DNA of 64,000 bases from positions 372,001-436,000 of the forward strand of contig NZ_RCZM01000005.1 in the NCBI RefSeq assembly GCF_006438965.1, given 5' to 3'. The notes under the pieces are model-generated. The model was not told the DNA's origin. It saw nothing but the letters and a program-made list of their open reading frames with translations, and did no database searches. Positions within the stretch are counted from its first letter, which is position 1. Every line of letters starts with the position of its first letter. This stretch comes from Pedococcus bigeumensis (GTDB lineage: Bacteria; Actinomycetota; Actinomycetes; Actinomycetales; Dermatophilaceae). The translations under genes were made by a program, and so were the position numbers. Below are positions 2,359-62,339 of the stretch, in pieces.

Positions 2359-2534
2359 GGTGGAACTCCTGTGGACCCGAGACGGCGGTGCAGCGGTGCG
2401 GAGTCGTCAGCATAACTGGCGTCCTCATCGTGGGATGCGGGTGCCGTATGCCGGACGGCCGGGCAAGGAGCGGCAGGCCAGCGGGGTGCGTCCAAGGTCC
2501 GACGACGTCTACTTCGAGGGGGATAGCCTCAGCC

Positions 2535-3449
2535 ATGAGCATCGAGGTACAGGGGGTGCGGCGAGCGTTCGGGGACGTGCTCGCCGTCGACAGCATCAGC
2601 CTCACGGCGGAGCCCGGCGAGGTCACCGCACTGATCGGTCCCAACGGTTCGGGCAAGACGACGCTGCTGCTGATGCTGGCGACGTTGCTGGTGCCGGACC
2701 AGGGCCAGATCCGCATCGACGGGCTCGATCCCGTCAGCCAGCCGACCGAGGTCCGGGCCAGGATCGGGTGGATGCCCGACGGCTTCGGCACCTGGGACGC
2801 GCTCACGGTGCGCGAGGTCCTGCACACCATCGCCGCGGCATACCGGATCCCACCGGACCGGGCGCGGGCCCGCACCGACGAGCTGCTGGCGACGGTCCAC
2901 CTCGAGGACCTCGGCGACCGCCGCGCACGCGTCCTGTCTCGCGGGCAGAAGCAGCGCCTGGGCCTGGCCCGCGCGCTCATCAACGACCCGAGCGTGCTCC
3001 TGCTCGACGAACCGGCATCGGGCCTGGACCCGCGCAGCCGCATCGAGCTGCGTGACGTGCTGAGATCCCTTGCGGCACAGGGCAAGACGGTGCTGGTCTC
3101 CAGCCACATCCTCACCGAGCTGCAGGAGGTCGCCGACCGGGCGATCATCGTGGCGCGTGGGCGGAGCCTGGAGACCCAGAGCCTGGACTCCGACTTCGTC
3201 GCGACGGGGGTGGCGTCGTGGCGGATCGACTCGCTCGACCCACAACCGCTGGCCAGCTGGCTCGAGGAGCACCACGTGCCCGCAAACCGGGTCGGAGGCG
3301 GGCTCACCGAGGTCGAGGTGGCCGGCGAGGAGAACGCCGCTCGACTGCTGGCGGACCTGGTCCGCGTCGGCATCCGGGTCATCGCCTTCACCCCCAGCCA
3401 GGGTGCCCTCGAATCCGCCTACCTCGCAGCGACGGAGGACCGGCGATGA
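2535..3449 (+). CDS. ABC transporter ATP-binding protein
   Basis: This 304-residue cytoplasmic ATPase has Walker A GPNGSGKT at residues 35-42, signature LSRGQKQRLGLARAL, Walker B VLLLDEPASGLDP and a switch histidine in SSHIL. The ATG at 2535 is chosen because the homologous N-terminus (MSIEVQGVRRAFG) starts there; in-frame codons upstream look non-coding. Its stop overlaps the start of the permease gene at 3446 (ATGA), so the two form an exporter of the ABC-2 type. The substrate is not identifiable. Divergent from lysC. Confidence 0.88.
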   Translation: MSIEVQGVRRAFGDVLAVDSISLTAEPGEVTALIGPNGSGKTTLLLMLATLLVPDQGQIRIDGLDPVSQPTEVRARIGWMPDGFGTWDALTVREVLHTIAAAYRIPPDRARARTDELLATVHLEDLGDRRARVLSRGQKQRLGLARALINDPSVLLLDEPASGLDPRSRIELRDVLRSLAAQGKTVLVSSHILTELQEVADRAIIVARGRSLETQSLDSDFVATGVASWRIDSLDPQPLASWLEEHHVPANRVGGGLTEVEVAGEENAARLLADLVRVGIRVIAFTPSQGALESAYLAATEDRR

Positions 3450-6481: not shown

Positions 6482-8851
6482 TCAGGACCCTTCGTCGATG
6501 ACCTTGCCGCCCAGCAGGCGCTCGATCACCGGGCGTCCGACCTCACCGAGCTCGGCGATGTCCTCGTCGTCGGCGCTCGCCACGCTGTCGTCGGCGATGT
6601 AGGTGTCCGGGGTCCGGGCCGGCTCCTCGGCCGCGACCGCGGCTCGCGCCGCCGCGAGGCGCGACATCTGGGCAGCCTGCGCAGCGGCGGGTGCGGCGCC
6701 CGCGCCTTGCTCGGTCGCGCCGGCCGACGCGCTCGGTGGGGTGCCTTCCGACGCGCCCGTGGGCACGGTCGTGGCGTCGTCACTGGCCCAGCTGGGACCG
6801 CCGCTGGGGCCGGACGATGCAGTGGCCCAGCCGCCGCCGGTCTCCGGGGGTGGGCTGGACGCCGCGATGCCGCCGTATGCCGCGCTGCCGCCGCCGGCGT
6901 TTGCGCCCTTTGCTGAGCCCGAGCTCCCGTCGCCCGCGGCTCGGCGCTGGCCGGGCGGCGGGGAGTCGCCCTTGACCGCCGGGTCGTCGGACGGGAACCG
7001 GTTGCCGGGCGCGACCGTGGGGTGGGCTTCGCCGCTCGGGGCGGCCAGGGCGGCGCCGGGCGTGGGGATCCCCTCGACCCTGGCATCGACTCCGAGCACG
7101 TCGATGAGGGCCTGACGGACCAGGTCGGCGTGCGGGCCGTGCCGGAAGGTGTTGGCGATGCCGACCGTCGAGATGCCGAGCACGACCTTGGAGCCGTCAT
7201 AGTCGTGCACCGTCGCGTGCTCGGACAACAGCGTCCACGTGGTGCGCTTGTGCTTGAAGATCCACCCGAGGATGTCCGGCCAGGCCCTGCGGATGGCGGC
7301 GACGTCGATACCACCAGTCGCCACCTGCGGGGCCGGGGCCTGCGGCACCTCAACGGGTTCTGCGACCGGCTCGGCAATCGGCTCGGCAGTGGGCCCGACC
7401 GCGGGCTCCGCAGCCGGCTCGGTCACCGTGTCCGCAGCTGGGGTCGACGCCGTGTCCGGCACCGTTGGCTCGGCCTGCGGCGCGGTTGCCGAAACCGGCT
7501 CCGACGCGCGAACCTCTGCCCGCGCCCGCGAGGGCTCGGTCGACGGGGGCTCCGCAGTCGCGGCGGACGCGGCCGGTGCAGGTGCCAGAGCGGGTGCCGG
7601 AGCGGGTGCGTGTGCCTGTGGCGGCGCGGCGACCGCCGCAGGTGGTGACGACGCGGTCGCCCCGGCAGGTCGCGCCGCCGAAGGCACTCCTTCGACGTCG
7701 AGGCGACGTTCGAGGCGGTCCAGGCGGGCGGCATACCCGGACTCGCCGGAGGCCGCTGGGAGCAGCACGCGCGCGCAGATCAGCTCGAGCTGGAGCCGCG
7801 GCGCGGTGGCGCCGGTCATCTCGGTGAGCCCGGCGTTGACGATGTCGGCTGCGCGGGACAGCGCGCCACCGCCGAAGGCGGCCGACTGCTGGCGCATGCG
7901 TTCGAGCTGGTCCTCGGGGACACCGCGCAGCACGGAGGACGCGCCGTCCGGCACCGCGGCGACGACGATGAGGTCGCGCAGCCGCTCGAGCAGGTCCTCG
8001 ACGAACCGGCGCGGGTCAAGCCCGGTCTCGATGACGCGGTCGACCTGGTGGAACACGCCAGCAGCATCTGCCGCGGCGAACGCGTCGATGATGGCGTCGA
8101 GCAGCTCGGCGTCGGTGAACCCGAGCAGGGCGGCCGCCCCTTCGTAGGTCAGGCCCTCGTCGCTGGAGCCGGCGATCAGCTGGTCGAGCACCGACAGGGA
8201 GTCACGCACCGACCCGCCACCGGCACGCGTGACGAAGGACAGCACGCCGGGCGCGACGCCGACCTTTTCCTTCTCGCACAACATGGCCATGTAGTCGGAC
8301 AGCTGGCCGGGCGGCACCAGCCGGAAGGGGTAGTGGTGGGTCCGGCTGCGGATCGTGCCGATGACCTTCTCGGGCTCGGTCGTCGCGAAGATGAACTTCA
8401 CGTGCTCCGGCGGCTCCTCGACGATCTTGAGCAGGGCGTTGAAGCCCTGCGGCGTGACCATGTGGGCCTCGTCGATGATGTAGATCTTGTAGCGGCTCTG
8501 CGCCGGCCCGTAGGACGCGCGTTCGCGCAGGTCACGGGCGTCGTCGACACCACCGTGGCTGGCCGCGTCGATCTCGATGACGTCGACCGAGCCGGCACCG
8601 CCGCGGGCCAGCGCCACGCACGAGTCGCAGGTGCCGCAGGGCGTCGGCGTCGGGCCCTGCTCGCAGTTGAGGCAGCGGGCCAGGATGCGGGCGCTGGTCG
8701 TCTTGCCGCAGCCGCGCGGACCCGAGAACAGGTAGGCGTGGTTGACCCGGCCGGTGCGCAGCGCCTGCATCAGCGGCTCGGTGACGTGCTCCTGGCCGAT
8801 GACGTCGGCAAAGGTCTCCGGCCGGTAGCGGCGGTACAGGGCGGTGCTCAC
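6482..8851 (-). CDS. dnaX: DNA polymerase III subunit gamma/tau
   Basis: The clamp-loader ATPase subunit of the replicase, 789 residues from GTG 8851 (MSTALYRRYRPETF). Walker A GPRGCGKTT is at residues 44-52, the zinc cysteines are C63, C72, C75 and C78, and IIDEAH forms Walker B. After about residue 380 comes a long Ala/Pro/Glu-rich linker with degenerate AEP(V/I) repeats, then a folded segment (IDVAAIRRAWPDILGWIFKH) typical of actinobacterial DnaX. TAGGGT at 8859-8864, 7 bases before the GTG, suggests a leaderless mRNA. An alternative in-frame ATG at 8881 would add 10 residues but lacks a ribosome site. Confidence 0.95.
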   Translation of the reverse strand: MSTALYRRYRPETFADVIGQEHVTEPLMQALRTGRVNHAYLFSGPRGCGKTTSARILARCLNCEQGPTPTPCGTCDSCVALARGGAGSVDVIEIDAASHGGVDDARDLRERASYGPAQSRYKIYIIDEAHMVTPQGFNALLKIVEEPPEHVKFIFATTEPEKVIGTIRSRTHHYPFRLVPPGQLSDYMAMLCEKEKVGVAPGVLSFVTRAGGGSVRDSLSVLDQLIAGSSDEGLTYEGAAALLGFTDAELLDAIIDAFAAADAAGVFHQVDRVIETGLDPRRFVEDLLERLRDLIVVAAVPDGASSVLRGVPEDQLERMRQQSAAFGGGALSRAADIVNAGLTEMTGATAPRLQLELICARVLLPAASGESGYAARLDRLERRLDVEGVPSAARPAGATASSPPAAVAAPPQAHAPAPAPALAPAPAASAATAEPPSTEPSRARAEVRASEPVSATAPQAEPTVPDTASTPAADTVTEPAAEPAVGPTAEPIAEPVAEPVEVPQAPAPQVATGGIDVAAIRRAWPDILGWIFKHKRTTWTLLSEHATVHDYDGSKVVLGISTVGIANTFRHGPHADLVRQALIDVLGVDARVEGIPTPGAALAAPSGEAHPTVAPGNRFPSDDPAVKGDSPPPGQRRAAGDGSSGSAKGANAGGGSAAYGGIAASSPPPETGGGWATASSGPSGGPSWASDDATTVPTGASEGTPPSASAGATEQGAGAAPAAAQAAQMSRLAAARAAVAAEEPARTPDTYIADDSVASADDEDIAELGEVGRPVIERLLGGKVIDEGS

Positions 8852-9003
8852 CTCGGGAACCCTAGTCGCCCCCGACGACATCAGGTATGCCGAGTGCCCA
8901 CCCCTGGGGACGGGTGCGGCGCCACCCGGATCCCCGGGAAATCGTCACCGACGGGCGGTACGTCCAGACGCTGGTGGCACACTGACGGCGACGAAGGAGG
9001 CAG

Positions 9004-9699
9004 ATGTTCGCACGGCGCAGACAGGCCACCACGGAACCGGGTCCGGGTGCTGGACAGGCCACCCCCCTGGTCACGCTCACCGCCACCGGGGTCGGCAAGG
9101 AGATCGACGGCAACGTCCTGCTGCGACCGGTCGACGTCGCCGTCACCTCGGGCCAGTGCGTCGTGCTACGCGGTGAGAACGGCAGCGGCAAGACCACCCT
9201 GCTGCGGATCCTCGCCGGCACCCTCGAGCCGTCGTCGGGCAGCGCCAGCCTCGACGGGCAGGCGCTGGACGAACGCAACCAGACCACGCGCTCCCGGGTG
9301 GCTGCCCTGATCGGCTCGCCCACGGCATACCGCGACCTCACCCTCATCGACCACCTCGTCCTCATCGACTCCACCTGGGGCGGGGACATCGGCACCGCGG
9401 ACGATCGGGCCGACGCGATGCTGGCCGAGCTCGAGGTCGACCACCTCTCCGAACGCTTCCCCCACGAGCTGTCGTCGGGGCAGCAGCACCTCTTCCACCT
9501 GGCGATGGTGCTGTTCCGCCCGGCGCGGGTGCTGCTCCTCGACGAGCCCGAACAGCGCCTCGACACCCACAAGCGCGGCCTGCTCACCGACATCCTGCTG
9601 GCCCGCAAGGCTGCCGGCGCAGCCCTCGTCGTCGCCTGCCACGACCCCACCATGACGGCCGCCATCGGCGACCTGGTGGTCGACGTCGCCGCCGTATGA
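9004..9699 (+). CDS. ABC transporter ATP-binding protein
   Basis: A 231-residue ABC ATPase with Walker A GENGSGKTT, signature-like LSSGQQHLFHLAMVLFRPARVLLLDEPEQRLD (Walker B LLLDEPE) and a switch histidine in ACHDP. The ATG is preceded by AAGGAGG at 8994-9000. The stop overlaps the downstream membrane gene start by 4 bp, so they form one unit. The pair appears in actinobacteria as an ATPase plus a large membrane protein of unclear substrate. Divergent from dnaX. Confidence 0.85.
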   Translation: MFARRRQATTEPGPGAGQATPLVTLTATGVGKEIDGNVLLRPVDVAVTSGQCVVLRGENGSGKTTLLRILAGTLEPSSGSASLDGQALDERNQTTRSRVAALIGSPTAYRDLTLIDHLVLIDSTWGGDIGTADDRADAMLAELEVDHLSERFPHELSSGQQHLFHLAMVLFRPARVLLLDEPEQRLDTHKRGLLTDILLARKAAGAALVVACHDPTMTAAIGDLVVDVAAV

Positions 9700-11108
9700 G
9701 CGACGCACCCGACGCATCCGGCGCGGCCGTAGTCCCGACGACCGACCGCGAGCGCCTCGTCGAGGCACGCCGCATCATCCGGGGCGGCCTGCCCGAGGAG
9801 GGCAACGGCAACGCCGTGTATGCCGCCTACGTCGCCGTCATCGCCTCGCTCGTCTACGGCGTCCCGGCGTCCCGCGCCTTCTTCGAGTTCGTCGACCCGG
9901 CCTGGCTGTCACGCCACCTGACCGGGGTCCAGGGAGTCCTCGTCGTCGGAGCGATCATCATGGGCCTCCTCCTGCTCGGGCACCGGCTGGGCTCGGTCCG
10001 GGGACCTGTGGTGCCCGAGCTGCCCTACCTCGACCACGTCGCGGTCAGCGCGCTCGACCGCGCCGTCGTGCTCCGACGCCCGTGGCGGCTCAGCCTCATC
10101 GGCTGTCTCGTGGGCGGACTGCTCACCGGTGCGGTGGTCGGCACCGGCATGGTCGTCGCCGACGTGGCTTCGCCGTTGGCCCTGTTGCCGACCAGCATGG
10201 GCGGTCTGCTGGTCGGCCTCCTCTTTGCCGGTGCCTGGCTGTGGGGCCAGGTGCGGTCCTGGCCCACCGGCGAGAGGGGTCCGGGAACGGTGCTGCGTGA
10301 GGCGCGTTCGCTCCGCGCCCTGCACCACGTCGGGATGCGCACCCAGGCGGCGCGGGCGGTGACCATCGGCGGTGCGGTGCTCGCGGGCGACCTCCGGGCC
10401 GCCCGGCTCGACGTGGCATCCCCCACGACCCGGCTCCGTCGGCGCCGGTTGCGAGCCCGTGGTCCGCTGGTCGTGATCGCCGAACGCGACCTGCTGGGAC
10501 TGCGGCGCTCCCCCGGGGCGCTGATCGTCGGCGCCGTTCTGTCGGGGGCGGGGTGCTGGGCGCTGGCACACGCGACCACTCCCGGGGTCCCGAGCATCGT
10601 CGCCTTCGTCGGGGTCATCGCCTGCTACCTCGGCTTCGGCGCGTGGGCAGAGGGGATGCGGCTCCAGGGCGACAACGCCGGGACACCGCCGCTGATCGGA
10701 CTGGCCTACGGGCAGGAGGCGGTGGCCCACCTGGTCGCGCCGTCCCTCGTCTACACCGTCGTGGCGCTGGTGGCCGGCGGGGTGGTCACGCTGACCTCGG
10801 ACGCCGGGGTCGCGGCGCTGGTCTGGCCGCTGGCCATGGTGGCGCTGGTCGGTGGCGCGCACCTCATGGCCGCCTTCCGCGGCCTGCCTCCGGTCTCGCT
10901 GTTCTCGCCCGGGTCAGCAGTGATGTCGGTAGCGTTCTGGTACTCGCGACCGCTGCTGCTCACGATCATCGGGGGCGTCGCGGCCACCGCCCTGCTCACT
11001 CGGTCCGGCGCGTCGAACGCCGTCCTGGTGCTCACCCTCGCGTCCTACGCGGCCGTCATGTTCGGCCGGCGGCGTGTCCGGCTGCTCGACGAGGGGCACC
11101 GGACCTGA
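9696..11108 (+). CDS. Multi-pass membrane protein, partner of the ABC ATPase (DUF6297-like)
   Basis: A 470-residue membrane protein that overlaps the ATPase gene by 4 bp. Hydrophobic segments occur near residues 45-65, 78-98, 130-150, 155-185, 270-290, 295-315, 345-380 and 420-455. Between the two halves is a cytoplasmic segment rich in Arg (residues about 190-260). The arrangement suggests the permease of a two-gene exporter; it resembles the actinobacterial DUF6297 family by recollection. No substrate can be stated. It ends 45 bp before the 4.5S RNA gene, which is on the opposite strand. Confidence 0.68.
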   Translation: MSDAPDASGAAVVPTTDRERLVEARRIIRGGLPEEGNGNAVYAAYVAVIASLVYGVPASRAFFEFVDPAWLSRHLTGVQGVLVVGAIIMGLLLLGHRLGSVRGPVVPELPYLDHVAVSALDRAVVLRRPWRLSLIGCLVGGLLTGAVVGTGMVVADVASPLALLPTSMGGLLVGLLFAGAWLWGQVRSWPTGERGPGTVLREARSLRALHHVGMRTQAARAVTIGGAVLAGDLRAARLDVASPTTRLRRRRLRARGPLVVIAERDLLGLRRSPGALIVGAVLSGAGCWALAHATTPGVPSIVAFVGVIACYLGFGAWAEGMRLQGDNAGTPPLIGLAYGQEAVAHLVAPSLVYTVVALVAGGVVTLTSDAGVAALVWPLAMVALVGGAHLMAAFRGLPPVSLFSPGSAVMSVAFWYSRPLLLTIIGGVAATALLTRSGASNAVLVLTLASYAAVMFGRRRVRLLDEGHRT

Positions 11109-12869: not shown

Positions 12870-13835
12870 TCAGGCGTGGTTCGGGGACGTGCCGTTCTGG
12901 ACTGCGTGCCTCTGGGACGGGTCGGCCGGTGCTGCCGTGAGCGCGGCGAGCGCCTGCGTGACCGAGCCGTGGTGCTCGGCGATCGCGCTGCGGGCAGAGG
13001 CCGCATCGACGCTAGCGAGCAGGGCAAGCAACGCCGGCTTGAGCTCGCCACCGGCCTGCTCGAGGGCCGCGCGCACCTCGGCGTCGCCGGCACCGCTCGC
13101 CTCCTGGAGGATGCGCACGACGCGGCCGCGGAGCTTGGCGTTCGTGGCAACGACGTCGACCATGAGGTTGGACCAGGTCCGGCCGAGCCGGATCATCACG
13201 GCGGTGGAGAAGGAGTTGAGGATCAGCTTCTGGGCCGTTCCGGCCTTGAGCCGGGTGGAACCCGTGAGCACCTCGGGGCCGGTCCGCGGAGCCAGCACGT
13301 GGTCCGCGTATGCCGCGAGCTCGGCCTGCGGGTTCGAGGTCACCAGGGCGGTGACCGCGCCTGCTTCACGGGCCCGCTGGAGCGCCCCGCCGACGTAGGG
13401 AGTGCGACCGGAGGCGGTGAGCCCGATGGCGATGTCTCCGGGTCGGAGCGAGGCTGCTTCGGCGCGGCCACCGTCCTCGTCGTCCTCGACGTTCTCGACT
13501 GCCTTGAGGAGGGCGCCGAGGCCACCGGCGTGGTGGGCGACGAACAGCCCATCGGGTGCGTTGAAGGTGGGCAGCAGCTCGGCGGCGTCGAGGACGGCCA
13601 GCCGGCCGGAAGTGCCGGCACCGAAGTAGTGCACGGTGCCGCCGGCCCGGATGGCGTCCACCGCGCGGTCGACGAGGCGGGCCAGCTCGGGCAGCACCTC
13701 AGCCACGGCCGGCGCCACCAGCGCGTCGTCGTCGTTGAGCAGTCGGAGGATGCCGAGGGTCGCCTCGGTGTCGATCGAGGTCGTCCCCGGGTGGCGCTCC
13801 TCGGTCGGGGCGCTCACGCTCACGTCGCTACTCAC
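12870..13835 (-). CDS. murQ: N-acetylmuramic acid 6-phosphate etherase
   Basis: MurQ cleaves the lactyl ether of MurNAc-6-phosphate to give GlcNAc-6-phosphate and lactate, a cytoplasmic step in wall recycling. The 321 residues carry the SIS-domain signature GAGTSGRLAVLDAAELLPTF with its catalytic glutamate near residue 84, and TASGRTPYVGGAL and SNPQAELAAYADH. The GTG start is only 7 bases from a -10 box, so the mRNA is probably leaderless. The gene lies 64 bp downstream of an RpiR-type regulator on the same strand. It is one functional piece of the recycling set continued at 17.8-22.8 kb. Confidence 0.93.
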   Translation of the reverse strand: MSSDVSVSAPTEERHPGTTSIDTEATLGILRLLNDDDALVAPAVAEVLPELARLVDRAVDAIRAGGTVHYFGAGTSGRLAVLDAAELLPTFNAPDGLFVAHHAGGLGALLKAVENVEDDEDGGRAEAASLRPGDIAIGLTASGRTPYVGGALQRAREAGAVTALVTSNPQAELAAYADHVLAPRTGPEVLTGSTRLKAGTAQKLILNSFSTAVMIRLGRTWSNLMVDVVATNAKLRGRVVRILQEASGAGDAEVRAALEQAGGELKPALLALLASVDAASARSAIAEHHGSVTQALAALTAAPADPSQRHAVQNGTSPNHA

Positions 13836-15510: not shown

Positions 15511-16389
15511 TCAGGACCGACGGGCGCGGCTGCGGACCGCTCCTCCCAGCCCCACTGCCGCGACCAGCGATGCCAGCAGCGGGACCATCGGCCAACCGCC
15601 ACCCGGAGCACCGGCTCGGTGCGCGTCGATCAGGGCCTGCGCCTGACCCCCGTCGCCGGCATCGACCCGGGACGGCACCTCACCGCTGCCGCGTGTCGCC
15701 ACGGGAAGCACCTGGACGACGGCGTCCATCGAACCCGTCGCCGCGACCCCGATGGCGAAGACCCTCGTCAGCGACGCCTTCCCCACTACCAGGTCGACGG
15801 GTCCGAACACCACCGGCCCGGTCGTCGCTGTCGGCACGATGTCGACGGGATAGGTGCCCGCCGGGACCGTGAGGGTCAGCTGCTCGCCGTTGGCCACGTT
15901 GGCGAACAGCACCTTGCCCTTGACCCTGATGTCTGCCGGTCCGACGGCTGCGGTGTGGGCAACGGTCAGGCGGCTGCTTCCAGCCGTGACCGCCGAGAGG
16001 TCGTTCGTGTATGCCGTGAACTCTGGCGGCTTGGTGACGTCTGCCTGGCGGTGCAGGATGGCATCGACGCTGGCGCCCGCGGCCACCCGGAGAGTTGCCG
16101 TGACGGAGGCTCCGCCGGACGCTGGCTTGGCCGCGAGCGTGTGCTGCCCGGGGGACAGCTTCAGGGGCCCGACGACCTGCTTCGCCGCAGCGCTTGCCGC
16201 GACCGTGCGACCGTCGACGGTCAATGCCATCGTCGTGGCATCGACCCCCTGGATGAGGTAGACCGTCGCCGACCCTGTTGCTGCGGGGGCGCGTTGCGGC
16301 ACCCCAGCCTGCGCGGGTGTCGTGGCGAGAACCAACGTCGCACCGCCGAGGAGCGCGAACGTGGCGACCTGGACAAACCGTCGGCGCAT
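15511..16389 (-). CDS. Secreted DUF4397 domain protein
   Basis: A 292-residue exported protein. The signal peptide (RRRFVQVATFALLGGATLVLA, cleavage after TPAQA) is followed by two DUF4397 beta-sandwich segments (ATVYLIQGVDATTMALTVDG and LTVAHTAAVGPADIRVKG). A low-complexity region and a C-terminal hydrophobic helix then lead to a basic tail (RSRARRS), resembling a sorting tail. I see no LPXTG. The ATG at 16389 has GGGGAGG upstream. It probably stays at the cell surface, possibly linked by the co-encoded sortase. Confidence 0.82.
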   Translation of the reverse strand: MRRRFVQVATFALLGGATLVLATTPAQAGVPQRAPAATGSATVYLIQGVDATTMALTVDGRTVAASAAAKQVVGPLKLSPGQHTLAAKPASGGASVTATLRVAAGASVDAILHRQADVTKPPEFTAYTNDLSAVTAGSSRLTVAHTAAVGPADIRVKGKVLFANVANGEQLTLTVPAGTYPVDIVPTATTGPVVFGPVDLVVGKASLTRVFAIGVAATGSMDAVVQVLPVATRGSGEVPSRVDAGDGGQAQALIDAHRAGAPGGGWPMVPLLASLVAAVGLGGAVRSRARRS

Positions 16390-17810: not shown

Positions 17811-19544
17811 TCACCGCGTCGTGAGCGTCCACCCGTCCGCGACCAGCGCCTCGGGCGCCTTCTCCCCGTCAAGCAGCGCACCTCCCCGTGCCGCCACGAG
17901 GATGTCGTCGACGTACACGCCGCGGCCCAGGTAGCTGCCGTCGGTGGTGTAGCGCCACCTCAGCTGCTGGCTGCCCGGTGCCAGGTCGGCTCGGGCCTGC
18001 ACCCAACGGCGGTCACCGCTGCCGGAGACGACGCCGTCGCTCGTGCCGGTCTCGCCGCGGTCGCGGGTCTCGAACGGTTGCGGCGCCCAGGTGGCCCCAC
18101 CGTCGCTCGAGCGCTCGAGCGTCAGCAGGTCGGTCTCCTCCGTGTCGAGGAACAGGTCGAAGCCGAGGTTGGCTCCTGTGGCCGGCACCGCGAGCGTGGG
18201 TGTGCCCAGGGTGTGGGTCGTGGCGTCCTGCGCGCCCGAGAACCACACGGTGTCACCGTGCTTGGGACGAACGGCCATCGCCTGCCCCAACCCGCCGGCC
18301 CACTCGCGTCGGGCCAGGTTGTTGCTGCCCCAGCTGCGCGATGGGTGGACCCGGTTGGTCAGCAGGATCGCGAACGAGCGCGAGCTGAAGTCGACGACGA
18401 TCGAGGTCCCGGTGTAGCCGGTGTGACCGGCGGTCCGTGGACCGGAGAGCGAGTCCATGTACCAGCGCTGGTTGAGCTCGAAACCCAGCCCGTGGTCGTC
18501 CCCGGGGAAGTCCCCGTTGAAGTTGGTGATGAGCGAGTTGACGCTGTCACGACTCAGGATCCGGTGTCCGCGGTAGGTGCCGCCGTTGAGCAACGCCTGG
18601 CTGAGGACCGCCATGTCGTCCACCGTCGAGAAGACCCCCGCGTGGCCGGCCACCCCGCCGAGCGACCACGAGTTCTCGTCGTGGACCTCGCCCCAGACCA
18701 TCCCGCGCGCCGGCGCGGTCTGGTACTCGGTGGCAGCGGTCCGGGTGCGGTCGGTGGGGTTGTAGCCAGTGTCGGCCATGCCCAGCGGCCCGGTGATCCG
18801 GTTCGCCACCACCCGGTCGAGCGACTCGCCGCGCAGCCGCTCGACCATCACGCCGAGGGTGATCAGGTTGAGGTCGCTGTAGAGGTAGGTGCTGCCGGCC
18901 GGGTTGGTGAGGGGTTGGTCCATGACGGCCTTGATCCGCGACGCCTTGTCCGGGTACTTGCTCCACAGCGGGAGCCAGGCCACGAACCCGGACGTGTGGG
19001 TCAACAGCTGCCGCACCGTCACCGACTCCTTGCCGTTCGCCGCGAACTCCGGGAGGTATGTCGCGACCGGGCTCTCGAGGTCGACCTTCCCTTCCTCCAT
19101 CAGCTGGACGACGGCCAGCGAGGTGAACAGCTTGGAGACCGAGGCCAGGTCGAAGAGCGTGTCGTCGCGCATCGGGACCCACTGGTCCCGCGGCAGCTCA
19201 GTCGTCGCGTTCGCGTAGCGCAGCGCCCACCCGCTGGCGTCCCGCTCGACGATCTTCCCGTCGTGGCCCATGATGCCGACGGCACCGGCATACATCGGGT
19301 GTCCGCCCACCGGAGCGGACTCGTGCGCCCGGATCTGGTCGACCGCTGTGGCGATCGGCCCGGGGTCCAGCCCCACGCTGGCAGGCGAGGCGTCGCTCAG
19401 GACCGTGTTCGGCGGGGCGAAGCCCCGGAACGGCTTGCTGAAGTCCTCGGCTCCCGCCTGTGGGGCCGTCACCAGCACTCCGCTGACGAGCGCGGCGCAC
19501 ACCGCGACGATGGCAGCTCCTTTGGTACGCATGGCAATACGCAT
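17811..19544 (-). CDS. amiE: Secreted serine hydrolase, AmiE-like N-acetylmuramoyl-L-alanine amidase candidate
   Basis: A 577-residue exported beta-lactamase-fold enzyme. It has a signal peptide cleaved near PQAGAED, the catalytic SVSK motif (DLASVSKLFTSL), a Tyr motif in YSDLN, and HTGYTG as the third motif. A C-terminal beta-rich segment with WTLTTR and a jelly-roll-like pattern follows. In Bacillus subtilis the beta-lactamase-family protein AmiE (YbbE) cleaves MurNAc-peptide bonds and is encoded with nagZ and namZ. The same three genes are consecutive here, 19 bp apart at this junction. The ATG at 19544 follows GAGGA. The amidase role is inferred from that context. Confidence 0.8.
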   Translation of the reverse strand: MRIAMRTKGAAIVAVCAALVSGVLVTAPQAGAEDFSKPFRGFAPPNTVLSDASPASVGLDPGPIATAVDQIRAHESAPVGGHPMYAGAVGIMGHDGKIVERDASGWALRYANATTELPRDQWVPMRDDTLFDLASVSKLFTSLAVVQLMEEGKVDLESPVATYLPEFAANGKESVTVRQLLTHTSGFVAWLPLWSKYPDKASRIKAVMDQPLTNPAGSTYLYSDLNLITLGVMVERLRGESLDRVVANRITGPLGMADTGYNPTDRTRTAATEYQTAPARGMVWGEVHDENSWSLGGVAGHAGVFSTVDDMAVLSQALLNGGTYRGHRILSRDSVNSLITNFNGDFPGDDHGLGFELNQRWYMDSLSGPRTAGHTGYTGTSIVVDFSSRSFAILLTNRVHPSRSWGSNNLARREWAGGLGQAMAVRPKHGDTVWFSGAQDATTHTLGTPTLAVPATGANLGFDLFLDTEETDLLTLERSSDGGATWAPQPFETRDRGETGTSDGVVSGSGDRRWVQARADLAPGSQQLRWRYTTDGSYLGRGVYVDDILVAARGGALLDGEKAPEALVADGWTLTTR

Positions 19545-26855: not shown

Positions 26856-28454
<1,599 letters not shown>

Positions 28455-33005: not shown

Positions 33006-33036
33006 GGCCGTGCGCGGACAACGCCACCCAAGGACG

Positions 33037-39975: not shown

Positions 39976-40098
39976 GATCTCTCCTTTGAGGTGCTCAGCG
40001 AGATGGCTGGGCTGGGTGACGAGCGGGTATGCCGTGCGGCTGAGCTGGATGGTGCTGCGAGAGCTGGCGAGGCGGGACCTCGAGAGCGGGTCGGTGCC

Positions 40099-48110: not shown

Positions 48111-48140
48111 CGCGGCATACTCCCGCGGGCGTATGCCGCG
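48111..48140. repeat. Perfect inverted repeat carrying GTATGCCGCG
   Basis: CGCGGCATAC (48111-48120) and GTATGCCGCG (48131-48140) with a 10-bp centre lie between the histidine kinase start and the alpha-mannosidase end. It may terminate the mannosidase transcript or serve the motif described in the findings. Confidence 0.65.
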
Positions 48141-48169: not shown

Positions 48170-51100
48170 CTAGGTCGGCGACGACGCGGCGAGTGCGAAC
48201 CGCAGGGTCCGCACCTCGAACGGTCCGAGCGTCATTGCGACTGCAGCGGGGTCGGGTGACCTTGGCCCGTCGTCGAGTGGTTCCTCGAGGAGGGTGACCT
48301 CGCCGACCGACGCCACAGGGAGGTCGACATGGACGGTGGCCGATGCCCTCCCGCCGAGCGCCTCGTGGACGCGGACCACCAGGTCGCCGGAGCGGTCGGC
48401 GGCCAGCTTGACGCAGGACAGGTGCACGCCGGTACCGTCCACCCGAACCAGCGCGTCGAACCCGTGATCTCCGATGACCACCCGAGCTGGGGTGTTGAGC
48501 ACCACGCCCTCCTGGGCGGCACCGTCGACGTCCGTCCCGACGACCAGCCCGTAGCGGTGGGTGTGCACGCCGTGGTCGGTGTCGGGATCGGGGAACCGCG
48601 GCGCCCGGAGCAGGGACAGGCGGATCGTCGTGGTCACCCCGTCCTCGGTCCAGTTGCGCGCCACGTCGTAGCCGTAGGTCGAGTCGTTGACGATCCCCAC
48701 CCCGAAACCGGGCTCCTCGACGTGCACGAACCGGTGCATCGACGTCTCGAAACGGGCCGCCTCCCAGCTCGTGTTCACGTGGGTGACGCGCCGCTGGTGA
48801 CCGAACTGCGTCTCGGCACTCGTGTGCTCGGCCCGGACGTCGAGCGGGAAGGCCACCTTGAGGAACCTCTCGACCTCGTGCCAGTCAGTGGCCTGTGCGA
48901 TGTGCAGCGTCCGGGATCCTGGTGACAGCGAAAAGACCTGTCGCACAGTGGAATCCACCGAGACTGGCCGCTCCACCACGACCTGCGCCACACCGTTCTC
49001 GTCGACGAACGCGTCAAGGCTGGTCACCTCACGCAGGTCGCGGACCGTGTTGCGGTAGAACCGGTCGACGTCCCAGGCATCCCACTCGTTCGGCAGGTCA
49101 GGATGCAGCTGCAGCAGCCCGGCTACAGCCCCGGCCGGGATGGCGTCACGGCCCGTGGCGAGGTCGACCGCAGACGTGACGAGTCCTTCGGCCGACAGCA
49201 CGACACGCAGCACCCCGTTGTCGACCACCACGTCGTCGCCCTCCCGCGCGACCGTCACCGGCGTGACCCCATCGGCGGTGTCATCAACGGCCGCGGGGGT
49301 CCGCACCCCCGCACCGGCCGGCACCCCACCGCTCGCGCAGCCCGCCCCGTTGACCGCGAGGCGCGCGCTACCGTCGCCTGACAGTGCGGCCAACGACCGC
49401 GCCACGAGGGCTTCTGCTTCGCGTTCCACGCGGGTGTACTGCTCCACCGCCTCGCGGTGGACCCAGGCGATTGAGGTGCCCGGCAGGATGTCGTGGAACT
49501 GCTGGAGCAGCACCTGCTTCCAGAGCGCGTCTAATTCCTCATGCGGGTATGCCGCGCCCGTGCGCACCGCGGCCGTGGCAGCCCACAGCTCCGCCTCGAC
49601 GAGGAGGTGCTCGCAGCGACGGTTGCCTGCCTTGGTGCGGTGCTGCGACGTGAGCGTGGCCCGGTGCAGCTCGAGGTAGAGCTCGCCGACCCAGACCGGT
49701 GTGCCGGGACGCGGTTGCCCGTCGGGTCCCATCAGCTCGTCCCGGGTCCGGGCGTAGAACGCGTCCGGGTGCTCCCAGCGCACCCTGGGGCTGCCCTCGA
49801 GGTCAGCGAGCCGTTGGGCTCGCCCCGTCATCTCGCGGGTCGTGCCGCCGCCGCCATCACCCCAGCCGACGGGAGCGATCGAGCCGGAGGCGATGCGGTG
49901 GTCACGGAACTGGCGTTCGGCGAGGGCGAGCTCGGCGCCGGACAGCTCGGAGTTGTAGGTGTCCATCGGTGGGAAGTGGGTCAGCACCCGCGACCCGTCG
50001 ATGCCCTCCCAGAGGAAGGTGTGGTGCGGGAAGGTGTTGACCTGGTTCCACGAGATCTTCTGGGTGAAGAACCAGTCGAACCCCGCGCGACTCACCAGCT
50101 GCGGCAGCGCCGGTGAGTACCCGAAGCTGTCGGGGAGCCACACCCCGTGACAGCTCACGCCGAGCTCTTCGGCGAAGAACCGCTGTCCGTAGAGGAACTG
50201 GCGCACCATCGACTCGCCCGACGGCATCACGGTGTCGCTCTCGACCCACATGCCGCCAAGCGGCAGGAAACGCCCGGCCCGCACTGCCTCGACGACCCTC
50301 GTCCAGACCTCCGGCCGGTGTTCCTTGACCCAGGCGTACTGCTGGGCACTCGACATGCCGAAGACGAAGTCCTGGCTCTCGTCGATGAGCTCGGTCATCG
50401 ACGCCGCGGTCCGCGCGACCTTGCGAACGGTCTCGCGCACCGGCCACAACCAGGCCGAGTCGATGTGGGCGTGCCCCACGGCCGAGATCACGTGGGACGC
50501 CGTGGCCGGCCGTTCCAGGACGTCCGCCAGGGCCGCGCGGGCGGCGGTGGCCGTGCCCGACACGTCGGCCAGGTCGAGCCGGTCGAGTGCGTCGTCGATT
50601 GCCTGGAGGATCCGCATCCGCCGCTGCCCTGCCGGCAGCTCTGCCTGCAACCCGAGCAACACGTCGAGGTCGAGGGCGAGAGCGTGGACCTCCTCGTCGA
50701 AGACTGCAAGGTCGATCCGGCGGGTGGCATACAGCAGGTCGGGCGACGCGGTGAGCAGGTCGCCCTGGGTGGTCGGTTTGAAGCGAATCGGCCCGAACAC
50801 CACCGGGTTCGAGGCCGCCTCGACGTAGAGCTCGACCGGTTCGCCGCCAGTCGCGCGAGGTGTCACGAGCGCCCAGTGGTTGCGCGGGTTCGCGGCCTTC
50901 ACCGGCGTTCCGTCAGCCCGGTAGACGAAGCCTTCGCACTGGAACCCCGGCTCGGCCACGTCGAACCCGAGGTCGACGACAGCCTCCACCCGGCGACCGA
51001 CCCACTCGGCGGGCACCTCGCCCGTCAACCGGAACCACGTCGTACCCCAGGCGGCGCCCCAGGGTGCCCCCACGGCATACGGCTCGTAGTCGAGGGCAAG

Positions 51101-51347: not shown

Positions 51348-51409
51348 CTCCGACCCGGAGCCGAACCGTATGCCGTAGACCTCAGTTCTGGTGGACCACC
51401 AGGCCAGGG

Positions 51410-53156: not shown

Positions 53157-55541
<2,385 letters not shown>

Positions 55542-55598: not shown

Positions 55599-56513
55599 CT
55601 AGGCCAGGTTGCCGAGGCGACTGGTCTGCATGATGACGGCCGCCATCTCCTCCACCGACATGGAGGCCGAGTTGATGGAGGGGATCCGGTTGGCCCGGTA
55701 GAGGGCCTCGGCCCTGCGCAGCTCGAAGCTGCACTGGGCGAGACTGGCATATTTCGACGCGGGCCGACGCTCCGTCCTGACCTGGCTGAGCCGGGCCGGC
55801 GTGGAGAGCAGGCCGTAGCACTTGGCGACCAGCCCACGGATGGGGCGGGGTATGCCGCCCGCGTCGAAGTCCTCATCGACGAGCGGGTAGTTCGCCACCT
55901 TGAGGCCGTGCTGGAGGGCGAGGTACATCGAGGTCGGCGTCTTGCCGCATCGTGACGGCGCCACGAGGATCAGGTCCGCCTGCTCGAGGTTGCGCAGGCT
56001 CGCACCGTCGTCGTGCTCCATGGCGAACTCGATCGCCTTCATCCGGGCGTCGTAGCGACCCTTGTCGCCGACGCCGTGCAGTGCGCCGACACCGTGGGTG
56101 GCGTTGACGTGCAGCACCCGCTCGACGGTGTCGAGGTGGGAGCCGAACAAGTCGATGAAGGCGCAGTCCGTCTTCTGCAGCTCCTCCCGGATGTCCTCGG
56201 CGGAGACCGTGGAGAACACCAGAGGCATCACCGAGTCGGTGACCGCGGCATCGAGCTCCTCAACCACCTGCTGTGCCTGCTCGACGGTGGTGATGAACGG
56301 GATCTTGCGCCGGGTGAAGGACACCGAGGGGAACTGCTGCAACATCATGTTGCCGAGCGTCTCTGCTGAGATGCCCGTCCCTCCCGCCAGGAAGAAGACG
56401 GGGGTGGGAGGAGCCGCGAGTTCATCCACCGCGCCAATGTCCCACACCCCGGGCGTCGCCCGCTTTCGGGTCGCGGCAGACCGTTGACATCTCTCGTCCG
56501 TGAGATCTACCAT
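55599..56513 (-). CDS. ppsR: PEP synthase regulatory protein (PSRP, DUF299)
   Basis: A 304-residue bifunctional kinase/pyrophosphorylase that controls PEP synthase by threonine phosphorylation. The C-terminal P-loop APSRCGKTPTSMYLALQHG and KVANYPLVDED are conserved. The N-terminal motif that reads SDGT in E. coli is AGGTG here (VFFLAGGTGISAETLGN). An extension of about 35 residues precedes the family start, so translation might begin downstream of ATG 56513. The start region overlaps the promoter of the divergent ROK gene. Confidence 0.88.
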   Translation of the reverse strand: MVDLTDERCQRSAATRKRATPGVWDIGAVDELAAPPTPVFFLAGGTGISAETLGNMMLQQFPSVSFTRRKIPFITTVEQAQQVVEELDAAVTDSVMPLVFSTVSAEDIREELQKTDCAFIDLFGSHLDTVERVLHVNATHGVGALHGVGDKGRYDARMKAIEFAMEHDDGASLRNLEQADLILVAPSRCGKTPTSMYLALQHGLKVANYPLVDEDFDAGGIPRPIRGLVAKCYGLLSTPARLSQVRTERRPASKYASLAQCSFELRRAEALYRANRIPSINSASMSVEEMAAVIMQTSRLGNLA

Positions 56514-57833: not shown

Positions 57834-59171
57834 GTGCACGCTTCACGGCATACCCTCATCGCCCTGGCCATCGCGTCCGTCGCCGTCGTCACCTCCGGGT
57901 GCACGGGCTCCAGCCCGTCCACGGACCCCGTCGCCACGACGGTCGCGCCCACCGAGAAGGTGACCATCACGTTCTGGCACGGCTGGAGCCAGCCGAGCGA
58001 GGTGAAGGCGATCGCGGACAACATCGCGGCCTTCCAGAAGCTGCACCCCAACATCACCGTCAAGACCGTCCCCAACGTCGCGGACGACAAGATCCTGCAG
58101 GGGATCCGCGGCGGCAACGGGCCGGACGTGGTCTCGTCGTTCACCACCGACAACGTCGGCATGTTCTGCAACGGGGCGCTGATGGACCTCAACCCGTGGC
58201 TCGCGAAGTCGGGCGTCGACAAGAACTCGGTGTTCCTGAAGCCGATGGTCGAGTACACGCAGTACCAGGGGAAGCAGTGCACCCTGCCGCTCCTCGGCGA
58301 CGCCTACGGGATGTATTACAACAAGGCCATGTTCGCTGCCGCGGGGATCTCCGCTCCGCCCAGGACATGGTCGGAGTTCAAGGCCGACGCGGTCAAGCTG
58401 ACCAAGCAGAGCGGTGCGAGCTACTCGCAGCTCGGGTTCATGCCGACCTTCCACGGCTACGAGAACGCCATCGCGCACTGGGTCTCCCAGTCGGGGCCCA
58501 CCTATTTCAGCGCTGACGGCAAGGCCAACATCGACAAGGACCCCGCCTTCGCGGACTTCCTCACGATGCAGAAGGATCTCGTCGACTCGCTCGGGGGCTT
58601 TGCCCGGCTGGAGAAGTACCGCAACGGGTTCGGCGAGGAGTTCTCCCCGCAGAACGCCTTCGAGGCCGGCAAGGTGGCCATGCAGATCGACGGCGAGTGG
58701 CGCACCGTGTCCATCCGCGATGACGGCGTGAAGCTCGACTGGGCGACCGCCCCCCTGCCCGTACCCGACGACCAGGCCGCCAGCTACGGCCGGGGCTACG
58801 TCTCGGGCACCGTGGTGGGCATCCCGGCCAACAGCAAGCACGCTGCCGCCGCGTGGGAGTTCGTGAAGTACCTGACCACGGACACCACGGCGCTGGTCAC
58901 CTTCGCGAACGCGATCCACAACGTGCCGTCCACCCACGCCGCGATGTCCTCGCCGGACCTGGACAAGGACGCGCAGTTCGCGACGTTCCTGCAGATCGCG
59001 CAGAACGAGCAGAGCAACACCACCCCCGCCAGCCCCAACGGCGGCCAGTACCAGACGATCCTGCAGGACTTCACCTACAAGTGGGAGTCGGGCCAGGCCA
59101 AGGACCTGACGAGCGGCCTGGCGGACGTCGACCAGCAGATCGACAAGGCCAACGCCCAGGCCAAGGGCTGA
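57834..59171 (+). CDS. Sugar ABC transporter substrate-binding lipoprotein (CUT1)
   Basis: A 445-residue extracellular solute-binding lipoprotein (signal ending VAVVTSGCTG). Segments such as ITFWHGWSQPSEVKAIADNIAAFQ, YGMYYNKAMFAAAGI, GKVAMQIDGEW and AAAWEFVKYLT are typical of family 1 binding proteins that take di- or oligosaccharides. AGGAGG lies 8 bases before the GTG at 57834. First of five genes that are closely spaced or overlapping. Confidence 0.92.
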   Translation: MHASRHTLIALAIASVAVVTSGCTGSSPSTDPVATTVAPTEKVTITFWHGWSQPSEVKAIADNIAAFQKLHPNITVKTVPNVADDKILQGIRGGNGPDVVSSFTTDNVGMFCNGALMDLNPWLAKSGVDKNSVFLKPMVEYTQYQGKQCTLPLLGDAYGMYYNKAMFAAAGISAPPRTWSEFKADAVKLTKQSGASYSQLGFMPTFHGYENAIAHWVSQSGPTYFSADGKANIDKDPAFADFLTMQKDLVDSLGGFARLEKYRNGFGEEFSPQNAFEAGKVAMQIDGEWRTVSIRDDGVKLDWATAPLPVPDDQAASYGRGYVSGTVVGIPANSKHAAAAWEFVKYLTTDTTALVTFANAIHNVPSTHAAMSSPDLDKDAQFATFLQIAQNEQSNTTPASPNGGQYQTILQDFTYKWESGQAKDLTSGLADVDQQIDKANAQAKG

Positions 59172-60168: not shown

Positions 60169-61074
60169 ATGGCCGACCTGACCGAGTCGCTGGCGCTGAC
60201 TGCGCGTCCCAGGACCACCGGAGCCGTCAAGTCGGACCAGTGGCGCCGTCGGATCGGTGTCCTGGAGTGGGTCGGTCTGCACGCGGTCGGGCTCGGGCTG
60301 GCCATCGTGTTCGTCCTGCCCTTCGTGTTCCTGCTGCTCACCTCGGTCATGAGCAGCGACCAAGCGCTGACGACCGACCTGTGGCCGCGGACCTGGCACT
60401 GGGAGAACTACGCGCAGGTCTTCCGCACCGAGGGCTTCGTCACCTGGTGGAAGAACTCCCTGATGTATGCCGGGTTGGGCACCGCCCTGACCATCGTGTC
60501 GAGCACCCCGGTCGCCTACGCCCTGGCCAAGATGCGATTCACCGGCCGCAACGCAGCCCTCATGCTCGTCATCTCGATGATGATGCTGCCGCCGCAGGTG
60601 GTCATCGTGCCGATGTACCTCCTGTGGGCCAAGCAGTTCCACCTCACGGGCACCCTGTGGCCGATCATCATCCCGCTGGCGTTCGGCGACGCCTACTCGA
60701 TCTTCCTGCTGCGCCAGTTCCTGCTCACCATCCCTCGCGAGTACATCGACGCCGCCAAGGTCGACGGGTGCGGTGAGTGGCGCACCCTGCTGTCCGTCGT
60801 CGTGCCGATGATCAAGCCGGCCCTCGTCGCGGTGGCGCTGTTCCAGTTCTTCTACTGCTGGAACGACTACTTCGGGCCGCAGATCTACGCCAGCGAGAAC
60901 CCCGCGGCCTGGACGCTGTCCTACGGCCTGCAGTCCTTCAAGGGAGCCCACCACGTCAACTGGAACCTCACGATGGCAGCCACCCTGCTCGTCATGGCGC
61001 CGGTCATCGTGATCTTCCTGCTCGCCCAGCGCGCGTTCATCCGCGGCGTGACCCTGACAGGAGTCAAGGGATGA
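60169..61074 (+). CDS. Sugar ABC transporter permease (CUT1, MalG-like)
   Basis: A 301-residue membrane protein, the second permease of the importer, with six helices and the EAA-like EYIDAAKVDGCGEWRTLLSVVVPM. It starts 1 bp after the MalF-like gene. No ATPase gene is present in this operon; CUT1 importers of actinobacteria often use a shared MsiK-type ATPase encoded elsewhere. Confidence 0.92.
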   Translation: MADLTESLALTARPRTTGAVKSDQWRRRIGVLEWVGLHAVGLGLAIVFVLPFVFLLLTSVMSSDQALTTDLWPRTWHWENYAQVFRTEGFVTWWKNSLMYAGLGTALTIVSSTPVAYALAKMRFTGRNAALMLVISMMMLPPQVVIVPMYLLWAKQFHLTGTLWPIIIPLAFGDAYSIFLLRQFLLTIPREYIDAAKVDGCGEWRTLLSVVVPMIKPALVAVALFQFFYCWNDYFGPQIYASENPAAWTLSYGLQSFKGAHHVNWNLTMAATLLVMAPVIVIFLLAQRAFIRGVTLTGVKG

Positions 61075-62339
61075 AGATTGCCGTCATCGGCGGCGGGTCG
61101 ACCTACACCCCCGAGCTGGCTGACGGGCTGGCCCGTCTGCGGGACGTGCTCCCGCTCGACGAGCTGGTCCTCATGGACCCGTCGCAGGAGCGACTGGACC
61201 TCGTCGGGGGCATGTCGGCCCGCATCCTGGCAGCGCAGGGACACCCCTGCAGGGTGGTCACCACCCGGCATACCCGGGAGGCGGTGGACGGAGCCGATGC
61301 GGTCCTCATCCAGCTGCGTGTCGGCGGCCAGGACGCGCGGCGGCAGGACGAGACGTGGCCGCTGGAGTGCGGCTGTGTCGGACAGGAGACCACGGGCGCG
61401 GGCGGCCTGGCCAAGGCGCTTCGGACTGTCCCGGTGGTGCTGGACATCGCCGCCAAGGTGCGCGAGGCAAACCCGGACGCGTGGATCGTGGACTTCACCA
61501 ACCCGGTCGGCATCGTGACGCGTGCCCTGCTCTCGGAGGGGCATCGCGCCGTCGGCCTGTGCAACGTCGCGATCGGCCTGCAGCGTCACCTCGCCGAGCT
61601 GCTGGGTGCCGACCCCGAGCGGGTGAGCCTCGACCACTTCGGACTCAACCACCTGACCTGGGTGCGGGGCGTCCACCTCGACGGCCAGTCGCAGGACGAG
61701 CTGCCGCGTCTGCTGAAGGCCAACGGCGAGGCGTTGGCAGGTCACCTCGACCTGCCAGTCGCCGCCCTGGAGCTCACGGGGATGCTGCCGTCCTACTACC
61801 TGCGCTACTACTACGAGCACGACGAGGTGGTCCGCGAGCTGCAGGGAGCGCCCACCCGGGCCGAGGTGGTCGCCGACGTCGAGCGAGAGCTCCTCCACAT
61901 CTATGCAGACCCGACCGTGACCACCAAGCCCGAACTGCTCTCGCAACGGGGCGGTGCGTACTACTCCGAGGCCGCAGTAGCCCTCGTGGCCTCCCTGCTC
62001 ACCGCGGCAACGAGCGAGCCCCAGGTCGTGAACGTCCGCAACCAGGGCACGTTGCCCTTCCTGCCGGACGATGCCGTCATCGAGGTGCCGGCGGACGTCG
62101 ACCGGGGCGGCGCGAGACCCCGTGCGCTCGAGCCCGTGCCACCCATCGCTGCCGGCCTGATCTCGCACGTGTTCGCCTACGAGCAGCTGGCTCTGGAGGC
62201 GGCGCTGCACGGCGGGCGCGACCGGGTCGAGCGGGCGCTGCTCGCCCACCCGTTGGTCGGTCAGCTGGACCAGGCCCGCCGACTGGCTGACCGGTTGCTG
62301 CTGGCAAACCGGGACCACCTGTCGTGGGTGCGAGGATGA
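61071..62339 (+). CDS. GH4 6-phospho-beta-glucosidase-like enzyme
   Basis: A 422-residue NAD- and metal-dependent glycosidase. The Rossmann motif VIGGGSTYTPEL is at residues 5-16, the metal-binding Cys is C164 (GLCNVAIG), and the His is H194 (FGLNHLTWV). DFTNPVGIVT and ALELTGMLPSYYLRYYY follow. Family members cleave 6-phospho-beta-glucosides. The ATG overlaps the permease stop by 4 bp, so the product probably acts on the imported sugar. Confidence 0.88.
   Translation: MKIAVIGGGSTYTPELADGLARLRDVLPLDELVLMDPSQERLDLVGGMSARILAAQGHPCRVVTTRHTREAVDGADAVLIQLRVGGQDARRQDETWPLECGCVGQETTGAGGLAKALRTVPVVLDIAAKVREANPDAWIVDFTNPVGIVTRALLSEGHRAVGLCNVAIGLQRHLAELLGADPERVSLDHFGLNHLTWVRGVHLDGQSQDELPRLLKANGEALAGHLDLPVAALELTGMLPSYYLRYYYEHDEVVRELQGAPTRAEVVADVERELLHIYADPTVTTKPELLSQRGGAYYSEAAVALVASLLTAATSEPQVVNVRNQGTLPFLPDDAVIEVPADVDRGGARPRALEPVPPIAAGLISHVFAYEQLALEAALHGGRDRVERALLAHPLVGQLDQARRLADRLLLANRDHLSWVRG

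Follow-up and report, generated by a model that had tools for sequence, protein, structure and literature searches.

The 64,000-nucleotide stretch of Pedococcus bigeumensis DNA analyzed here (the window; positions 372001-436000 of contig C9 in genome G000, which comprises 4.22 Mb in 13 contigs) is strewn with a short word, GTATGCC, that we treat as a candidate DNA uptake sequence (DUS). It occurs 40 times, 22 on the forward strand and 18 on the reverse, as the initial annotation of the window had estimated by eye; the accompanying expectation of about six copies was too high, as 100 dinucleotide shuffles gave a mean of 2.42 (standard deviation (sd) 1.49, maximum 7). Most copies were also said to continue into a longer sequence, and indeed the next base is G in 38 of 40, making the unit the 8-mer GTATGCCG. 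The estimate that about a quarter of copies are non-coding stands (11 of 40, with 29 in genes), whereas the non-coding share of the window is 9.3% rather than the claimed 7% or so. Table 1 lists every copy by the coordinates of the 7-mer, with coding status taken from our own gene prediction, together with two inverted pairs of words that fold into strong hairpins. A terminator scan of window positions 32500-49000 listed neither hairpin, because the scan requires a T-tract.

The abundance extends to the whole genome, where GTATGCC is found 2,608 times (1,292 + 1,316 on the two strands) against 228 (115 + 113) for the word read backwards, and GTATGCCG 2,551 times (1,264 + 1,287), or once per 1.66 kb, against 74 (35 + 39) for its reversal. 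In a 464 kb sample of G000 (the window plus 400 kb), to which the counts in this paragraph and the next refer, GTATGCCG occurs 296 times where a second-order Markov model expects 7.4. The word overrides codon preference, as had been proposed from the window: TAT accounts for 276 of 2,614 Tyr codons overall and 150 of the 292 that precede GCC, and GCA for 1,333 of 18,704 Ala codons overall and 61 of the 324 that precede TAC. The 224 genic copies compare with a mean of 18.5 (sd 4.0, maximum 28) in 100 within-gene synonymous codon shuffles, a null that preserves each gene's amino acids and codon usage but not codon-pair preference. Two of the checks suggested by the initial annotation, a genome-wide count and a codon-shuffled null, uphold its claim of overrepresentation. 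Another 72 of the 296 copies fall outside or partly outside genes, while non-coding DNA makes up 9.9% of the sample. The enrichment is not a product of codon usage.

Every one of the eight bases counts. Among the 24 words that differ from GTATGCCG by one mismatch, those with at least 10 copies occur at 0.5-2.5 times expectation, compared with 40-fold for GTATGCCG itself, and a single rare form reaches 10-fold (4 copies, 0.4 expected). Flanking preferences are weak (G at -1 in 57%, at +10 in 68% and at +13 in 60% of copies; also +9). The word is non-palindromic, differing from its own reverse complement, and its strands are balanced within stretches (62/69 in 200 kb, 80/85 in 264 kb), with no strong bias of the kind seen for Chi or for FtsK-orienting polar sequences (KOPS). 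Copies are spaced more evenly than random placement predicts (coefficient of variation 0.79; one gap above 6.4 kb, 4.9 expected). Pairs closer than 50 bp are nevertheless in excess (16 versus 9.3 expected), and every one of the 16 is inverted. Of these, 14 lie between genes, for the most part no more than about 100 bp past a stop codon. These pairs hold 32 of the 296 copies, and unpaired genic copies number 220. Inversion also marks pairs closer than 60 bp in some other genomes (G025, 3 of 3; G123, 4 of 4; G103, 3 of 3, with another word); in G147, 1 of 2 such pairs is inverted.

The word is conserved between species. With 8-mers of equal A+T content in the same aligned stretches as control, words remained intact between G000 and Phycicoccus sp. 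Soil802 in 9 of 11 cases (control 1,175/3,649, 32%), between G000 and its congener G001 in 10 of 13 (817/3,351, 24%) and between G000 and its congener G002 in 10 of 12 (839/3,265, 26%), the three comparisons sharing largely the same words. The LeuS protein of Soil802 is the nearest named match to that of G000, at 89% identity. Within the com-tad locus described below, taken alone, 3 of 4 words were intact, and 3 of 7 in the reverse direction.

Across 186 genomes of the Dermatophilaceae (taken broadly, with Intrasporangiaceae included), GTATGCCG ranges from 7 to 4,724 copies per genome, with some whole genera rich and others empty. Poor genomes also occur beside rich relatives: G151 is an empty species in the rich genus g68 (50 copies versus 394-1,901 in the other g68 genomes), G127 has 19 copies whereas its two congeners have 1,062 and 3,681, and G065 has 37 whereas its four congeners have 1,251-1,660. 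Named records with dense GTATGCCG include Terrabacter, Intrasporangium chromatireducens, Ornithinimicrobium, Phycicoccus and a metagenome-assembled genome (MAG) of Tetrasphaera. Outside the family the word is not enriched: 272 genomes from 18 families of the order hold at most 177 copies each, those with high counts show similar counts for the reversed word, and the sole genome of a nineteenth family holds 40. In other actinobacteria, 64 loci totaling 1.38 Mb contain 32 copies.

Unbiased word counts in 100 kb samples of five rich genomes were topped by GTATGCCG-type words, with flanks that vary; in G025 the word extends to CGTATGCCGCTG. Different words take its place elsewhere. In G103, which has few copies of GTATGCCG, CGAAGGGGG stood out and was strand-balanced (27/26 in 135 kb); it reaches 797-1,860 copies in all 16 genomes of genus g62 and 1,317-1,939 in all three of g66, whereas none of the other 167 family genomes exceeds 80. 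A further word, GGATGCCG, first met at 30 copies in 17.4 kb of a named Dermatophilaceae MAG, reaches 3,816 and 3,838 copies in g17, 3,949 in g74 and 4,480, 3,619, 2,195 and 2,099 in g53. This word has a higher background than the other two (up to 1,336 outside g17, g53 and g74). The g53 genomes with 2,195 and 2,099 copies also carry 1,217 and 1,189 copies of GTATGCCG, a mixed state. GTATGCCG, CGAAGGGGG and GGATGCCG are dialects of different genera.

When further words were sought in 91-135 kb from each of G151, G065, G011, G185, G018, G127 and G207, none was as strong as these three. Some lesser observations belong here. In 115 kb of G018 (genus g9; L227-L230, L213 and L015), CAGGTAGGC occurs 12 times where a third-order Markov model expects 0.7, and may be a word that is weak or fading; in 120 kb of G185 (L035-L039 and L209), ATCGCGATG occurs 17 times versus 1.1 expected. 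On contig C1 of the g53 genome G083, five 20 kb samples hold only 1 of the 361 genome-wide copies of GTATGCCG, which may be unevenly placed. Record L149, 22.9 kb of an Actinomycetaceae MAG (S28M_Sa_25), holds 13 copies of CGAGGGCG, divided 6 and 7 between the strands. Each is followed by G, most sit inside a longer common sequence, and two close pairs are inverted; this may be a further dispersed word or repeat, belonging to another family.

G000 holds genes of a transformation apparatus: comEA (HHH and SLBB domains), comEC, which adjoins it (Pfam), and tad genes. Of three clear T2SSE ATPases, one lies in an Flp-type cluster. Another begins a cluster at C1:440-445 kb, here called com-tad, which reads tadA-tadB-tadC-flp-TadE-TadE-TadG-like; its flp candidate is 69 amino acids long with no Pfam match. 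Transformation of Micrococcus luteus needs two tad clusters, one of them ordered tadA-tadB-tadC-TadE-TadF-TadG, according to passages of PMC4322843, and by eye the com-tad pilins begin like the M. luteus pilins whose starts are quoted in PMC6370729. Because of its likeness to the M. luteus cluster, com-tad probably serves transformation in this family. No clustering of words near the competence genes, a check that the initial annotation had proposed, was seen: 15 lie in the 15 kb around comEC and 11 in the 20 kb around com-tad. As discriminators between genomes with and without words, several candidates were discarded, namely type IVa pili (PilT, TIGR01420, exceeds its cut-off in only 2 of 186 genomes), ComEC (present in 180 of 186) and ComEA (found in all 19 comEC loci examined, in both kinds of genome). 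A split comEC alignment in G127 was likewise left unused, as word-rich G064 is split similarly.

The com-tad pilins are statistically linked to the words. Two pilin profiles (tadE2 and tadG) were run on the 186 genomes, and the pilins were called kept where at least one of them matched, which does not imply an intact locus (G017, with an interrupted tadA, counts as kept). Genomes with at least 350 copies of GTATGCCG were classed as word genomes and those with 150-349 as weak, limits fixed after the counts were known; 24 of the 186 genomes, less than 90% complete, were excluded, 8 weak genomes stand outside the groups compared, and three genomes were reassigned by hand once GGATGCCG was known. 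Pilins are kept in 111 of 114 word genomes and in 31 of the 41 that have no known word, and both are missing or weakly matched in 3 and 10, respectively (table 3/111 and 10/31; Fisher p = 1e-4, with related genomes counted as independent). Counted by genus, with the same reassignment, 5 of 15 word-less genera have lost the locus and 1 is mixed; among 30 genera with word-bearing genomes, 1 has lost it and 1 is mixed. The link means that com-tad nearly always accompanies a word; it does not imply that the locus is enough for one, as most word-less genomes keep it too. Some apparent cases dissolved on inspection. G202 had seemed both word-less and pilin-less; it carries GGATGCCG, hence it counts against the link. 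Pilin loss in G127 and G207 was dismissed when tadE2 and tadG were found further away, with an element filling the gap, and tadA of G014 is no longer taken as interrupted, a second, whole class C match lying on C22.

Elements in or beside the locus were met four times in the loci examined (Table 1). The interruption of tadA in G017 and G185 lies close to its nucleotide-binding region, and the break in G207 and G127 falls at or near the end of tadC, splitting tadABC from the pilin genes; each case has an element with a large serine recombinase. The four differ from one another, and the one in G127 includes, in addition, genes that look like those of a type I restriction system. G017 is word-rich, and G185, G207 and G127 have none of the three words. 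Acquired DNA may be poor in words, to judge from two stretches: the 11 kb element of G017 holds 1 word versus 20 in the remaining 19 kb, and a second stretch holds 0 in 6 kb versus 12 in 14 kb. In other bacteria, mobile elements are known to insert into competence genes, as described in parts of PMC4774983. In G202, part of tadC and the pilins have given way to a stretch with no large serine recombinase among the genes listed there. Beside this damaged tadC (L243-L249), the gene at L243:13597-14724 encodes a short tandem-like protein repeat, WQRQLFQKPLVPD.

Table 1 Copies of the word in the window, inverted word pairs, and elements at com-tad loci of other genomes
Feature	Position	Strand	Context
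GTATGCC then G	2446..2452	+	non-coding
GTATGCC then G	2837..2843	-	coding
GTATGCC then G	6875..6881	+	coding
GTATGCC then G	7730..7736	-	coding
GTATGCC then G	8885..8891	+	non-coding
GTATGCC then G	9324..9330	-	coding
GTATGCC then G	9818..9824	+	coding, Tyr-Ala as TAT-GCC
GTATGCC then G	13308..13314	+	coding
GTATGCC then G	16009..16015	+	coding
GTATGCC then G	19287..19293	-	coding
GTATGCC then G	20767..20773	+	coding
GTATGCC then G	21675..21681	-	coding
GTATGCC then G	24220..24226	+	coding
GTATGCC then G	24979..24985	-	coding
GTATGCC then G	26173..26179	-	coding
GTATGCC then G	26821..26827	+	non-coding
GTATGCC then G	28068..28074	+	coding
GTATGCC then G	30856..30862	+	non-coding
GTATGCC then G	30934..30940	-	non-coding
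GTATGCC, 7-mer only, then T	32855..32861	+	coding
Word, hairpin arm 1	33040..33046	+	non-coding
Word, hairpin arm 2	33068..33074	-	non-coding
GTATGCC then G	36164..36170	-	coding
GTATGCC then G	36720..36726	+	coding
GTATGCC then G	40027..40033	+	non-coding
GTATGCC then G	44074..44080	-	coding
GTATGCC then G	44997..45003	+	coding
GTATGCC then G	45470..45476	-	coding
Word, hairpin arm 1	48114..48120	-	non-coding
Word, hairpin arm 2	48131..48137	+	non-coding
GTATGCC then G	49547..49553	+	coding
GTATGCC, 7-mer only, then A	50726..50732	-	coding
GTATGCC then G	51074..51080	-	coding
GTATGCC then G	51368..51374	+	non-coding
GTATGCC then G	53784..53790	-	coding
GTATGCC then G	55221..55227	+	coding
GTATGCC then G	55850..55856	+	coding
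GTATGCC then G	57847..57853	-	coding
GTATGCC then G	60465..60471	+	coding
GTATGCC then G	61267..61273	-	coding
Inverted word pair (hairpin)	33036..33078		behind gene ending at 33005; 33033-33081 folds at -32.8 kcal/mol, 0/200 shuffles as good
Inverted word pair (hairpin)	48111..48140		intergenic gap 48057-48169; 48106-48146 folds at -24.2 kcal/mol, 2/200 shuffles as good
Element in/beside tadA/tadC	G017:C43:9848-20885 (L235/L236)
Element in/beside tadA/tadC	G185:C1:2044.7-2048.6 kb (L237)
Element in/beside tadA/tadC	G207 (L240:5118 on)
Element in/beside tadA/tadC	G127:C1:271.2-308.5 kb (L238, L239, L206)

We propose that GTATGCCG is probably a DUS-type uptake word of a naturally transformable Dermatophilaceae lineage, read by an Flp/Tad competence pilus. 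The initial annotation had offered an uptake-type word, a nucleoid protein site or a methylation motif; the dialects, the inverted pairs behind genes, the even spacing, the conservation and the link to a competence-type pilus locus favor the uptake word, and nothing we found points to the other two, although no test was aimed directly at either and methyltransferases were not searched for. From these patterns we infer DNA binding, biased uptake, the identity of the receptor and the direction of cause, as follows. A surface receptor, most likely in or on the Flp/Tad competence pilus, would bind double-stranded DNA that bears the word, after which ComEA and ComEC would bring one strand into the cell for recombination. 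If DNA with the word is taken up more often, words would accumulate wherever codons or gaps permit, kept there by biased uptake, by selection or by both. A change in receptor specificity would give rise to a new word, and thus a dialect, and loss of competence would let words decay. More broadly, we think it probable that this is a Gram-positive form of sequence-specific transformation, in which the Flp/Tad pilus reads at least three dialects (GTATGCCG, GGATGCCG and CGAAGGGGG) that act as barriers between genera and in which elements integrating into pilus genes may block the process.

Several observations weigh against an uptake word read by this pilus. The word classes were set after the counts had been seen, and the Fisher test assumes an independence that related genomes lack. 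Of the 41 genomes that have no known word, those 31 still keep the pilins, including G151 in its word-rich genus, and G065 (89% complete and thus outside the count) is a further word-less genome that keeps them. Conversely, G118, G027 and G202 are word-rich without either pilin, and G017, with its interrupted tadA, is the genome with the most copies. Recent loss would explain these four exceptions. Neither comEC (180/186 genomes) nor comEA (19/19 loci) separates the word groups. The preference for inverted pairs is unclear in G066 (1 of 4) and G132 (2 of 6, with another word), and this trait is therefore not equally clear across genomes. Finally, uptake and its receptor are matters that we infer. 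As a separate observation, G118 and G027, both of genus g18, hold about 2,540 copies each with no clear matches to com-tad pilins, perhaps as a result of recent loss.

Other explanations for so abundant a word account for parts of the evidence. A process of DNA modification, repair or mutation could favor the word with no role in uptake, as has been discussed for HIP1, a very abundant palindromic octamer of cyanobacteria whose function is debated. Such a process would explain enrichment in genes and gaps alike, balanced strands and words that are specific to lineages, but we regard it as unlikely: the word is non-palindromic, its one-mismatch neighbors are not broadly enriched, close pairs in G000 are inverted and words statistically follow a competence-type locus. 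A signal for recombination or against degradation, read like Chi by a helicase-nuclease of RecBCD, AddAB or AdnAB type, is quite unlikely. Chi, too, is typically short, non-palindromic, dense and lineage-specific, and the words here differ between lineages. Searches for RecC, the Chi-reading subunit, which did not extend to AddAB and AdnAB, however detected it neither in G000 nor in 9 of 10 congeners, all word-rich; its absence from G000 means that RecBCD-Chi cannot explain the word there. RecC occurs in 90 of the 186 family genomes, with and without words. The strands are balanced, and Chi offers no explanation for the inverted pairs behind genes. The initial annotation had argued from strand balance against both KOPS and Chi; the argument holds for KOPS, whereas for RecBCD-type Chi the missing RecC is the stronger ground for exclusion.

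A binding site for a nucleoid or chromosome-organizing protein would fit thousands of evenly spaced copies, which suit an architectural role. The replacement of the word by an unrelated one in two genera and its disappearance elsewhere would, however, require an abundant protein to change specificity repeatedly, and no candidate turned up, although no search was aimed at one; we consider this reading very unlikely. Dispersed transcription terminators or a miniature repeat family would suit the close inverted pairs, with 14 of 16 intergenic, mostly just past stop codons, and with strong hairpin folds. The paired copies are nonetheless few beside the 220 unpaired genic copies made by codon choice, and coding copies contradict this as a full explanation, leaving it extremely unlikely.

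If the uptake word is real, it would make it possible to ask which features of uptake words are general and to what extent transformation has shaped actinobacterial genomes. How receptors change specificity could be asked as well, since in one genus some genomes are rich in two of the words. Adding the word to donor DNA may render hard-to-transform actinobacteria tractable.

Comparison with known systems places GTATGCCG closest to uptake sequences. Like Chi, it is a short, non-palindromic, genome-wide word, but G000 lacks RecC and the strands are balanced; like HIP1, it is a very abundant octamer, but not a palindrome. The com-tad locus shares its gene order with the Flp/Tad transformation system of M. 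luteus, with a flp gene added. In the genomes searched, however, GTATGCCG is enriched in no family but the Dermatophilaceae, and the main text of PMC4322843 on M. luteus contains none of the terms 'uptake sequence', 'uptake signal' or 'DUS'.

The word's conservation, even spacing, strand balance and inverted pairs are traits of the uptake sequences of Neisseria and Haemophilus. The uptake signal sequence (USS) of Pasteurellaceae has long flanking AT-rich segments, and these are not seen here, where weak preferences (-1, +9, +10 and +13) take their place; the word, phylum and pilus type also differ. Shared with the USS is a dense word in genes and gaps that is tied to competence, as passages of PMC2397512 present it. 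The neisserial DUS is described in parts of PMC3630211 and PMC2397512 as conserved in alignments, found in close inverted pairs that act as terminators, rare in recently acquired DNA and divided into genus dialects. In being a short, non-palindromic word present thousands of times, roughly once per 1-2 kb, GTATGCCG resembles the DUS as portrayed in those passages; unlike it, the words found here belong to a high-GC Gram-positive host and are unrelated to GCCGTCTGAA. Because PilT is below its cut-off in 184 of 186 genomes, the usual reader, ComP on a type IVa pilus, is impossible in most of the family, and the word is not a member of the Neisseria ComP/type IVa pilus system in the narrow sense. 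Among top-ranked matches in the open-access literature, which leaves most subscription journals outside, we found no actinobacterial uptake word reported. To our knowledge, uptake words have been described from Neisseriaceae and Pasteurellaceae, and the word of the Dermatophilaceae seems to add a third, independent instance of the DUS/USS type, with a different pilus.

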